64,000 nucleotides of DNA from an uncultured bacterium. Its GTDB lineage: Bacteria; Bacillota_I; Bacilli_A; RFN20; CAG-826. The DNA is taken from assembly GCA_949299195.1 (NCBI GenBank), contig CASFZN010000009.1:1-64000 (forward strand), read 5' to 3'. The notes under the pieces are model-generated. The model searched no databases and was not told where the DNA came from. It was given only the letters and a program-made list of their open reading frames with translations. The number at the start of each line of letters is the position of its first letter. Position 1 is the first letter of the stretch. Shown piece after piece: positions 28,205 through 34,423 of the stretch. Both the position numbers and the translations under genes were made by a program.

Positions 28205-29641
28205 TTATTCAGTTTCTACTACTGCTTCCTCTTTACTTTCAGGAGTAATTTTTAACTCTTCTTCAATCCTTCGATTTTCTTCTTCAATTAGGTGGCGATT
28301 ATCTTTATTTGCTTTAGCGGCAAAGATAAATAGAATTCCTCCAGCAAAAACTAAACAAGAAAGCGGAATAATTGAAATATTTGCATTTTGAGTTGCGGTA
28401 TTAATAGTAGCAAAAAGGAATGTTCCTAAAAAACTTGCGCCTTTTCCAAAAGCATCAAAAAGGGAAAATAATTCTCCGCTTTTATTTTTAGGAATAATTT
28501 GAGTGAAATAACTTCTTGATAATGATTGAATTCCTCCTTGGAAGAATCCAACAAAAATAGCTAAAACCCAAAACATCCAGTCTGAATTGATAAAAATAGC
28601 GAATATAGTGATAAATAAATAGCCAATAATACAAACAAATATCATTGGGACCGTGCCAAATTTTTTCGATAAATATGCAATTCCTATGGCACTAGGGAAA
28701 GCAATAACTTGAACTGCAACTAAAGCTGCTAGACTCATTACTTGATTAACTCCAAAACTTTCACTAACTTTAATAGCAAGTTCAATGATTGAATAAACGC
28801 CATCAATATAAAGGAAGAAAGCGATTAAAAAAAGAATAATCCCCTTATATCTTTTAGCATATTTAAAAACTTCATAAATTCTTACATAGGCGTGACCTAT
28901 ATTTTTAAAGAAATGGCCTACTTTACTACCTTTTCTTTTTAAAGGCTCAATATAATATTTTTGTTTATAAACACTAAATAAAGGAATTGTAAAACCAATC
29001 CACCATAAAGCATTGATAATAAAACAAATTAAATATCCACTTGGACAAGCTAAGGAAGCATCCATTCCAGTTAATAATTCGCCATTACTTCCATAGGCTT
29101 CATAATTAGTAAAACCAAAAGCAACGATTGCAAGTCCAATTAAAAATGGAACTAAACTACCAATATATCCAAGTGCATATCCATATGAAGAGACTTTATT
29201 TGATCTTTCATCAGTTGTAACATCAACTAGCATCGAATCATAAATCATCAAAGCTCCATTATAAGCAACTTTTGCAACAACAAAGGCAATAATCCATGCC
29301 ATATAATGCATTGGAATGCCAAGTGCAATACAAGCTAAACAAGAAATAATTGTAAAAATCAAAAACATTGGTTTTTTAAAGCCCTTATAATCGCTTGAAG
29401 AACCAATTAATGGTCCAATTAAAACAGCTATTAAAGTGATTACTGAAGTTGCATAACTCCAAATAGAATCCGATTGCCAAGTTTCTAATTTTGCTTCATC
29501 ACTCATAAGGCCAAAAAATAAAGCAAATAGGGAAACGCTAACCATTGTAAAGGCACTATTTCCTACATCATAAAGGATCCAGTACCACTCTTTTTTCGTG
29601 AACTTGTCCTTCTTTTTCTTATTAACTACTTTTTCTCCCAT
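28205..29641 (-). CDS. MFS transporter, UMF1/Atg22-like
   Basis: A 478-aa membrane protein with about 12 hydrophobic segments. The N-terminal WILYDVGNSAFTMVSV is the signature of the UMF1 family, related to yeast vacuolar amino acid exporter Atg22. The motif PLIGSSSDYKGFKKP (near residue 80) resembles the MFS loop 2-3 signature, and PKNKSGELFSLFDAFGKGAS the symmetric loop in the second half. It is probably an efflux or permease protein for amino acids or small metabolites, with unknown substrate. An AGGGGA site precedes the ATG. The C-terminus is acidic. Confidence 0.87.
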   Translation of the reverse strand: MGEKVVNKKKKDKFTKKEWYWILYDVGNSAFTMVSVSLFALFFGLMSDEAKLETWQSDSIWSYATSVITLIAVLIGPLIGSSSDYKGFKKPMFLIFTIISCLACIALGIPMHYMAWIIAFVVAKVAYNGALMIYDSMLVDVTTDERSNKVSSYGYALGYIGSLVPFLIGLAIVAFGFTNYEAYGSNGELLTGMDASLACPSGYLICFIINALWWIGFTIPLFSVYKQKYYIEPLKRKGSKVGHFFKNIGHAYVRIYEVFKYAKRYKGIILFLIAFFLYIDGVYSIIELAIKVSESFGVNQVMSLAALVAVQVIAFPSAIGIAYLSKKFGTVPMIFVCIIGYLFITIFAIFINSDWMFWVLAIFVGFFQGGIQSLSRSYFTQIIPKNKSGELFSLFDAFGKGASFLGTFLFATINTATQNANISIIPLSCLVFAGGILFIFAAKANKDNRHLIEEENRRIEEELKITPESKEEAVVETE

Positions 29642-29780: not shown

Positions 29781-31601
29781 TTATTTTTTAAAATAATCGT
29801 TTTTGATTTCTTCAATATATAAATAGATGATTTTTTCCCATTCACTACCTTCATAAGAAAAGGTATTTTTGCTTAATTTTTTAAATTCTTTATCAGTTAA
29901 AGCACGGAAATTTTTAAAGGATAATTCGTTATCTTTAAAGTATTTAATTTGATAATAATATAGTTTTAATTTGACGGCTAAATAAGATACGCGGCTTACC
30001 TTATTTCGCTTAACTCTAATTGAATAAAATTTAATTAAAAATAAGGTGTTAATATAGGTTTTAGTGAAAGTTTCAAAGTTAATATAAGATTCATTTAATT
30101 TATTAAAATTATTAAAGGCAAAGAAAGACTCTCTTTCTAAAAGAAATTCATTGATAAAACCTAATTTTTTAGTAAATAAAAGATAGTTAAAATTGAAATA
30201 AGCATTATTTAATAATTCATTACTTGAAGGGAAAATAATCGAATTATTAAGTAAGATTTCACGTTTATAAATCTTATTTGAAAGATTGTCATTTTTCATT
30301 AAATTAGTGATGACTTTTTTAGTGTAATGATCATTTTTATTTAATCTATTAGGGAATAATTTTCTTAAAAATGAATGTTCTTTATTTTCATAATATTCAG
30401 GAACAACTTTTAAACTTACTGAATTAAAAATTTTAAAAGATGAGGTAACAAAATCTAAGTCATCTTTTGAAATTTTTTGATACATTTTTCTTAAATAATC
30501 ATGTCTTAAAATTGAAGTAGAATCTAAAAATATTAAGTATTTAGAATTCATAGTTTTTATCGAATAATTCTTAATTTTATTAATATTATCTAAAGCTTCG
30601 CTTTCAATATCGTTAACGTCAATCACATTAAATAAATCCCTATTTAAAGATTCATAATATTTAACTGTTTTTAAGTTCTCTTCACTTGGATTAAATAAAT
30701 AGATATTAAGTGCATATTCAATTTTAATATCTTGATTTTTAAGTGATTCTAAATTACGTGATAAAAGCTCATTATTATCGTTACTAACGATATAAGAAAC
30801 TCCAAGTTCATATTCTTTTCTTAATCTTTTTATCTTTAATTCTTTTTCTTTATTGATTAAAGAATATTCACATCCACAATAGTCTTGGCGGTATAAATTG
30901 TTGTTTTTAGCGATTTTAATTCCGATTTCTTGACCGTTATTCTTTTTAAAATCACTATAAATAAATTCAACTTCGCTGCCTTTATATTTATTTTCTAATG
31001 ATTTTCCTACCTTATTTATATAAGTAGCATCTTTATTTCTAGAAATAGACATGACTGTAGTTACGTATTTAAAGCCATTATCAATAGCATATTTAAATAA
31101 AGAATCCATTCTTTTATAAATACAGACCTTACATCTATTGCCAGTAATTTCTTTATCGTCTTTAAACTTAACTAAATCTTTTTTAAATTCTTCATAATTA
31201 TATGAATCTTCAATAATCTCAATTTTAGATTGATAACGATAATTCAAATCTGAAAGATATTTTTTTAAATTATAAAGCCTTTTATCATATTCAACTTTAG
31301 GGAAGATATTTGAATTTGAATAAAAAATAGTAATATCAAAAAGATCGTGAAGGAATATTAAAGGATATGTAGAACAAGGTCCACAACATACATGAAGTAA
31401 TAATTTAGGCTTATTTACCTCTTTTTTCCTAATTTCTTTATATTCTTTAATGAATTCTAAATAGTAATTTATCTCATTATTACTTTCTTCTTTTTCTTCA
31501 TTTATAGATAAATTTAAAATTGAGGATAGATCAATTTTTTCATCCTCTTTTTTCTTTAAAGGTGACTTTTTAATATCTTCAATTTTTCTATTTGTTTCCA
31601 T
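29781..31601 (-). CDS. queH: Epoxyqueuosine reductase QueH fused to a GT2-like glycosyltransferase domain
   Basis: A 606-aa two-domain protein. After a charged linker (1-62), residues 65-262 are QueH, which reduces epoxyqueuosine to queuosine in tRNA. It has the HVCCGPC cluster (Cys72, 73, 76), NRCKVC (Cys157, 160) and YCGC (Cys242, 244), all the iron-sulfur and redox Cys. Residues about 266-606 resemble a family 2 (GT-A) glycosyltransferase: SYIVSNDNNELLSRNLESL, then YSIKTMNSKYLIFLDST. The usual DxD is DST (Asp360, Thr362), so metal binding may be lost. Ordinary QueH has about 180-250 aa. It is the last gene of queT-tgt-queA-queH, 11 nt after queA. The fold of the second half is inferred from motifs. 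Confidence 0.85.
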   Translation of the reverse strand: METNRKIEDIKKSPLKKKEDEKIDLSSILNLSINEEKEESNNEINYYLEFIKEYKEIRKKEVNKPKLLLHVCCGPCSTYPLIFLHDLFDITIFYSNSNIFPKVEYDKRLYNLKKYLSDLNYRYQSKIEIIEDSYNYEEFKKDLVKFKDDKEITGNRCKVCIYKRMDSLFKYAIDNGFKYVTTVMSISRNKDATYINKVGKSLENKYKGSEVEFIYSDFKKNNGQEIGIKIAKNNNLYRQDYCGCEYSLINKEKELKIKRLRKEYELGVSYIVSNDNNELLSRNLESLKNQDIKIEYALNIYLFNPSEENLKTVKYYESLNRDLFNVIDVNDIESEALDNINKIKNYSIKTMNSKYLIFLDSTSILRHDYLRKMYQKISKDDLDFVTSSFKIFNSVSLKVVPEYYENKEHSFLRKLFPNRLNKNDHYTKKVITNLMKNDNLSNKIYKREILLNNSIIFPSSNELLNNAYFNFNYLLFTKKLGFINEFLLERESFFAFNNFNKLNESYINFETFTKTYINTLFLIKFYSIRVKRNKVSRVSYLAVKLKLYYYQIKYFKDNELSFKNFRALTDKEFKKLSKNTFSYEGSEWEKIIYLYIEEIKNDYFKK

Positions 31602-31612
31602 TTTCTTACTAA

Positions 31613-32661
31613 CTATTTAGTTTTGGTATAAATAAACATCGCATCCCCATAAGAAAAGAAATGATATTTATTTTCAACAGCCCTATTATAGCAAGAAATT
31701 GTAAAATCTCTCCCCATAAGTGCGCTAACAAGCATAACAAGGGTTGATTTTGGTAAATGAAAATTTGTAACTAATGAATCGATTGCTTTAAATTCATATC
31801 CTGGATAAATAAAGATTGCAGTATCAGCTTCTTCAGCTTTAAATTCGTTATATTTTGAATAGTTTGATTCTAAAGTTCTAACAACAGTAGTTCCTATTGC
31901 AATAATATTTCTACCTTCTTTTTTTGCTTTATTTAATTTTGATGCAGTTTCTTCACCAATAATATAGGATTCAGAATGCATCTTATGATTTAAAATATCG
32001 TTTTCTTTAACTGGTTTAAAAGTGCCTAGTCCAATAGAAAGCGTTACATCTAAAATTTCTACGCCCTTTTCTTTAATTTTTTCTAATAATTCATTTGTAA
32101 AATGGAATCCTGCGGTAGGAGCAGCACTACTTCCATTAATTTTTGCATAAACTGTTTGATAATCTTCCTTATTTTTACTTTCTTCGTCTAAATTTTGTTC
32201 GATATATGGAGGAAGTGGAGTTAAGCCAATTTCATTTAATATTTCTAAAAATATTCCTTTATAAGTAAATTTTAAAATTCGAATACCTTCTTCTTTTCTT
32301 TCTAAACAATTGGCTGATAATACGCCTTCTTTAAAGATAATTTCAGTACCAATTTTGATAACTTTAGCATTTCCACATATTGCTTCAAAAGTATCGTTTC
32401 CTAAATCTTTTAATAATAAAACTTCTACATGAGCCCCAGTATCTTTTTTAACTCCAAAAAGTCGATAAGGATTAACTTTGGTGTTATTTCTAACTACTAC
32501 ATCGCCTGGTTTTAAATAATCAATAATATCGCTAAAAAGTTTATCTTCTACTTCATGAGTATCCTTATTAATAAGCATCAAACGGCACTTATCTCTTTCT
32601 TTTGATGGATGTTGAGCGATAAGTTCTTTTGGTAATTCGTAATCAAATAAATTTATATCCA

Positions 32662-32662
<1 letters not shown>
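31613..32662 (-). CDS. queA: S-adenosylmethionine:tRNA ribosyltransferase-isomerase
   Basis: A 349-aa enzyme that moves the ribosyl part of SAM onto preQ1 in tRNA, giving epoxyqueuosine. It starts INLFDYELPKELIAQHPS and has DGRFYN-like NNTKVNPYRLFG, SSAAPTAGFHFT near residue 175 and LPKSTLVMLVSALMG near residue 310. Length is typical. Its ATG overlaps the tgt stop (TAATG), implying coupling. It stands between Tgt and QueH in pathway order. Confidence 0.97.
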
Positions 32663-33809
<1,147 letters not shown>

Positions 33810-33853: not shown

Positions 33854-34423
33854 TTACCATTTTACTTTTGTTAAATCTTGGGTGTTATTAATAAGAGTGA
33901 AAAAATGTGGATAAGTCTTTTTTAAAATCATAAAAATCATATATCCTAAAACATTTATAGCTAAAAATTCTCCTAAAAAAGTCCATCCAGCCATAATGAA
34001 AAATATACCACTTTCAAGTAAAAATTCATCGGCAGTTCCTAAAGATGCTAAATAGATAATAAAAGGCACTGCTATCGCATTAATTAAACATGGAACTAGT
34101 CCATTTAAAAATAAGGATCTATTAAAAGTTCTATTCATTACACTAATCAAAACACAGGAAATAAAGGTTGCTAAAGTACCAATAACTATGTCAAAGATCC
34201 CAGCTGTTGAAAAAAGATTTGCTAACAAACAGCCAATAGTTAATCCAATCGTATATGAAGGATTAAAAAATACTAAAAGATTAAGTAATTCCGCGACCCT
34301 AAACTGCATAAAATTATAGGATAAAATTGGAATTGAAATTGTTATAACAGCATAAAGCGCTGCAACAATTGCGTTTAATGTAATCATCTTTACACTAAAC
34401 ATGTTTTTAAAAAATAAACTCAT
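33854..34423 (-). CDS. queT: QueT-type queuosine precursor transporter (ECF S component)
   Basis: A 189-aa membrane protein with about six hydrophobic segments, matching the QueT/COG4708 family of S components that work with a shared ECF module. It starts MITLNAIVAALYAVITI after a short lead and has the FRVAELLNLLVFFNPSYTIGLTIG block. It probably imports preQ1 or queuine. No queD, queE, queC or queF is seen, so the operon is of the salvage type. It is the first gene, behind a leader of about 206 nt and an AGGGGG ribosome site. Confidence 0.9.
   Translation of the reverse strand: MSLFFKNMFSVKMITLNAIVAALYAVITISIPILSYNFMQFRVAELLNLLVFFNPSYTIGLTIGCLLANLFSTAGIFDIVIGTLATFISCVLISVMNRTFNRSLFLNGLVPCLINAIAVPFIIYLASLGTADEFLLESGIFFIMAGWTFLGEFLAINVLGYMIFMILKKTYPHFFTLINNTQDLTKVKW

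Follow-up and report, generated by a model that had tools for sequence, protein, structure and literature searches.

The window analyzed here, a 64,000-nt stretch of bacterial DNA, carries a queuosine cluster on its minus strand, with queT, tgt, queA and then a queH gene in one line. The queuosine-precursor transporter gene queT (33854..34423) was recognized by Pfam PF06177 (E 1.5e-36); tgt, for tRNA-guanine transglycosylase (32662..33792), and queA (31613..32662) were named by sequence and synteny, and queA lies upstream of the queH gene in the same operon-like array. That last gene (29781..31601, ATG start, stop codon included) encodes 606 residues without an internal stop, and it joins queH to a glycosyltransferase (GT) family 2 sequence. 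A transporter gene (MFS/Atg22-like; 28205-29641, minus strand) comes after it in the window, while among the other fusion genomes described below this site is held by rpsJ in four and by a 327-residue gene in two. An Rfam scan of the window gave no match at the gathering threshold, i.e., no preQ1 riboswitch was seen.

QueH is an epoxyqueuosine reductase, converting epoxyqueuosine in tRNA to queuosine in the final step of the pathway. The QueH domain spans residues 67-248 (30858..31403) and matched PF02677 at 171.9 bits (cut-off 23.5; E 1.8e-50) over 173 of the 175 model positions; a whole-genome profile search hit the same coordinates, and the nearest solved structure, by both sequence and fold, is that of Thermotoga maritima QueH (7LC5/7LC7, with 7LC7 the fold match). 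The original prediction had placed the QueH Cys clusters in the N-terminal half, and the motif set (CCxxC/D, RCxxC, YCGC) is indeed complete there: HVCCGPC at residues 70-76 (C72, C73, C76; 31374..31394), RCKVC at 156-160 (C157, C160; 31122..31136) and YCGC at 241-244 (C242, C244; 30870..30881), with these cysteines invariant in all eight fusions. QueG was not found in the window's genome (~95% complete), so that QueH is likely its sole epoxyqueuosine reductase, one that must work if queuosine is made.

Beyond a junction or linker (residues 249-267; 30801..30857), profile, fold and alignment evidence marks residues 268-500 (30102..30800) as a GT2-derived GT-A domain that has lost its active-site motifs. 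It is followed by a C-terminal region (501-606; 29784..30101) that alignment shows to be conserved in all eight fusions and that includes YEGSEWEK at 583-590. Across the junction, residues 235-300 contain no in-frame ATG, GTG or TTG; thus no conventional internal start there could free the GT half, which speaks against its separate translation.

The window's GT half on its own matched PF00535 weakly (E 3e-4, 21 bits against a cut-off of 23.3), although all eight fused GT halves matched this family, with a best E of 1.4e-20, and a profile built from the eight reached solved GT2 structures at E 1.2e-26. The intact GT half of one relative (L075), modeled at pTM 0.73, found CgT/GalT1 by Foldseek at E 1.2e-17, then TarP, TarS and RmlT, all enzymes known to decorate surface polymers. 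A full-length model of the window protein, made from eight sequences, was poor (mean pLDDT 58), so we make no claim on domain arrangement; reliable were most of the QueH part, which matched 7LC7, and residues 262-388, the portion of the GT half that matched GT-A enzymes. Structure prediction and fold search together with the family profile thus confirm, at the level of sequence and model, the earlier assignment of the second half to the GT-A fold and GT family 2. Neither the fold nor the family fixes the acceptor.

The DxD site had been read as DST and loss of catalysis suspected on that basis; the fuller alignments strengthen the suspicion. In every unfused GT2 neighbor of queH the DxD site is DSDD or DGDD and the catalytic base lies in ED; the window protein instead has DSTS (360-363; 30513..30524) and NN (465-466; 30204..30209), and LD of the donor site is replaced by FN (303-304). 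DxD is lost in six of the eight fusions. Five of these (L032-L034, L035 and L038) keep ED; only L036 and L037, which share their contigs with L078 and L075, respectively, keep both motifs. Placed on the species tree, these states require DxD to have been lost at least twice after fusion, a count of decay events that depends on the tree. Some GT-A enzymes can dispense with DxD and work without it, hence its loss is no proof of inactivity.

A search of 59 relatives recovered the full-length fusion from seven additional genomes, all in the window's uncultured Bacilli genus, at 43-47% identity end to end. In public records of these contigs, names in the styles of three assemblers were represented among the eight genomes, which excludes the error at the junction that had been raised as a possible explanation and leaves an assembly or frameshift artefact a negligible prospect. 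In a phylogeny based on ribosomal proteins together with tgt, queA and queT, the eight fusion genomes formed one clade (support 100), within which the window's genome branched as sister group of the remaining seven (support 94). The fused GTs also formed one clade, with modest support (77/90, or 90/90 without the window sequence), so the case for a single fusion event rests mainly on the species tree.

Outside the genus, a class-wide survey of QueH architecture in 395 genomes (about 150 of the 204 matching genomes listed) found QueH frames almost all of ~180-265 residues, and the exceptions among the matches listed were two QueA–QueH fusions and an N-terminally extended QueH. The former are single 554-residue frames, each from a different genome within the class (L079 in G220 and L080 in G124); the latter is a 434-residue frame (L081 in G117) whose ~245-residue extension has no Pfam match. 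In phage records the ten matches listed were to QueH alone, and no record covered 80% of the query. We found no published account of a QueH–glycosyltransferase fusion in the literature searched.

Seven congeners outside the fusion clade have an intact GT2 adjoining queH as a separate gene, downstream in three (L041, L043 and L050, where the genes overlap by 14 or 17 nt or stand 2 nt apart) and upstream in four (L044, L045, L047 and L052). With the fused-GT profile these queH-adjacent GT2s scored 143-201 bits, and no other GT2 identified in the genus exceeded 77 bits; many queH-bearing congeners have no such GT2. The spot between queA/queH and rpsJ varies among congeners, holding genes for GT4, UDP-galactopyranose mutase, DUF4422 and NDP-sugar epimerase. 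In two of them (L044 8652-10751 and L047 2378-4477) the GT2 upstream of queH is itself fused to a GT4 in a 699-residue protein, and in another (L048 8890-13626) queH is directly followed by a gene for a 1578-residue protein that on visual inspection resembles RHS/YD-repeat proteins. The best GT2 relatives in other genera of the family scored 91-162 bits with the same profile, and none of the 12 neighborhoods examined had queH, tgt or queA beside them; a GT4-type gene was adjacent in two and within ~5 kb in one. The link to queH is thus a feature of the window's genus, within a glycan-gene setting. Because a GT2 of the same lineage adjoins queH in congeners, while the closest GT2s examined in other genera lie away from it, the fusion looks like a joining of queH to a neighboring GT2 gene.

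We estimated dN/dS by Nei-Gojobori counting from few close pairs; the branch to the window's GT half is too long for a reliable value, and the figures come from sister fusions. For the GT-A part, the DxD-intact pair L036/L037 gave 0.053 (95% 0.028-0.085), indicating strong purifying selection, and three pairs within L032-L034, with DxD lost, gave 0.23, 0.51 and 0.52. The C-terminal part remained at 0.06-0.12 in DxD-intact and DxD-lost groups alike (close sister pairs), and the QueH half was at 0.06-0.16 in pairs with enough change. Overall the GT half is far more variable than QueH, QueA or Tgt. In one pair (L032 7752-9380 vs. L034 7267-8943) even synonymous divergence contrasted, at 0.06 in the QueH half and 0.45 in the GT half, which inter-lineage recombination of the GT half could explain. 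In a neutral simulation at 0.1 substitutions per site stop codons always arose, ~8 of them, where we observed none; selection therefore holds the frame, even in lineages that have lost the motifs. A stop in the GT half, being downstream, would spare QueH, and retention of this half accordingly suggests that some of it is useful.

The joining of a GT to the last queuosine enzyme had suggested a hypermodified, glycosylated queuosine. On such a view the GT half would be, or recently have been, a bacterial analogue of QTGAL/QTMAN glycosylating the product of QueH. Besides the fusion itself, this reading can draw on the queH–GT2 neighborhoods of seven further congeners and on L036 and L037, in which the motifs survive and constraint on the GT half equals that on QueH. 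We nonetheless judge it very improbable: six of the eight fusions lost DxD with QueH intact, many queH-bearing congeners lack such a GT2, the closest relatives examined in other genera lie away from queH, gene neighbors and nearest structures indicate glycans, and the GT half varies far more than the queuosine enzymes. With the GT2 a separate gene among glycan genes in congeners and its motifs lost at least twice in the fusions, glycosylated queuosine from the window protein appears unlikely. There is only a slight chance that the L075 and L078 fusions are bacterial queuosine glycosyltransferases, of which the window protein would be a degenerate descendant; should that be so, proteins of their type would make glycosylated queuosine in bacterial tRNA.

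The glycan setting would be accommodated by a neutral fusion of two unrelated activities in one chain, QueH acting on tRNA and the GT half making a surface glycan or glycolipid. Unfused GT2s sit beside GT4, UDP-galactopyranose mutase and NDP-sugar genes, the closest structures are those of enzymes acting on teichoic acids and other glycans, the QueA–QueH fusions elsewhere show that neighbors of queH do fuse, and L036 and L037 fit well; yet it leaves unexplained why the window protein and five sisters lost the motifs but kept the domain, and we regard this account as unlikely. A further reading is recruitment: the decayed GT domain would have taken on a new QueH-linked role, for instance in binding tRNA or a partner, with selection for that role acting on the C-terminal part. 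In its favor, the frame is kept in all eight lineages, C-terminal dN/dS stays low also in fusions with a relaxed GT-A part, and a YEG-x-WEK motif is common to all fusions. However, a related -WE- C-terminus occurs in the unfused GT2s of L041, L043 and L050, so C-terminal conservation may predate fusion, and the fused GT half is no more basic than its unfused relatives, which leaves no sign of the second role in tRNA binding that had been proposed. We consider such recruitment improbable.

The best reading of the sequence evidence is a working QueH to which a partly decayed GT2 domain is attached, no longer catalytic but with its C-terminal part still in use; that the window protein combines an active QueH half with an inactive GT half is, in our estimation, probable. 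Ancestrally, a separate glycan-making GT2 enzyme would have been encoded next to queH, and the two may have been joined when a small indel arose or the queH stop codon was lost. The window's GT half would since have ceased to transfer sugar and been retained as a folded, non-catalytic appendage, of which the C-terminal ~100 residues may still serve the folding, oligomerization or location of the fused protein. In the window's genome the GT half is thus most probably a remnant, or a fold put to another use, and not an enzyme adding sugar to queuosine. Counting against this best reading, two sister fusions have intact motifs and a strongly constrained GT half, which means that being fused does not in itself preclude an active GT.

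In one bacterial clade, then, a tRNA-modification enzyme appears to have captured a neighboring sugar-transferase gene, and with intact, relaxed and decayed GT states side by side one can trace what becomes of an enzyme after fusion. The case for bacterial glycosylated queuosine, attractive as it was, is weakened, and the two genomes with L075 and L078 remain fair test cases.

Among known systems, QTGAL and QTMAN are the animal Q-tRNA glycosyltransferases (PMC12518689), and like the window fusion they connect glycosyltransferases with queuosine; they act on Q-tRNA, whereas nothing points to tRNA as the substrate of the window domain. The QTMAN_N domain (PF12038) had no match in the window's own genome or in 295 genomes of the phylum, in a search where the control genomes were silent too. 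The surface-glycan GT2s CgT/GalT1 (5HEA), TarP (6H4F), TarS (5TZI) and RmlT (8BZ5) share with the window domain the GT-A fold and order of elements, and sequence similarity to them is detectable for the fused family; the window domain differs in missing DxD and the ED base and in being joined to QueH. The QueA–QueH fusions likewise join QueH to the product of a neighboring gene, although there the partner is a pathway enzyme, QueA, and stands at the N-terminus. The window's QueH resembles T. maritima QueH in its PF02677 domain, Cys motifs and position after queA, but its first Cys motif is CCxxC rather than CCxxD (Cys replacing Asp13 of the T. maritima protein), and it bears an extra 340-residue C-terminal domain derived from a GT2.
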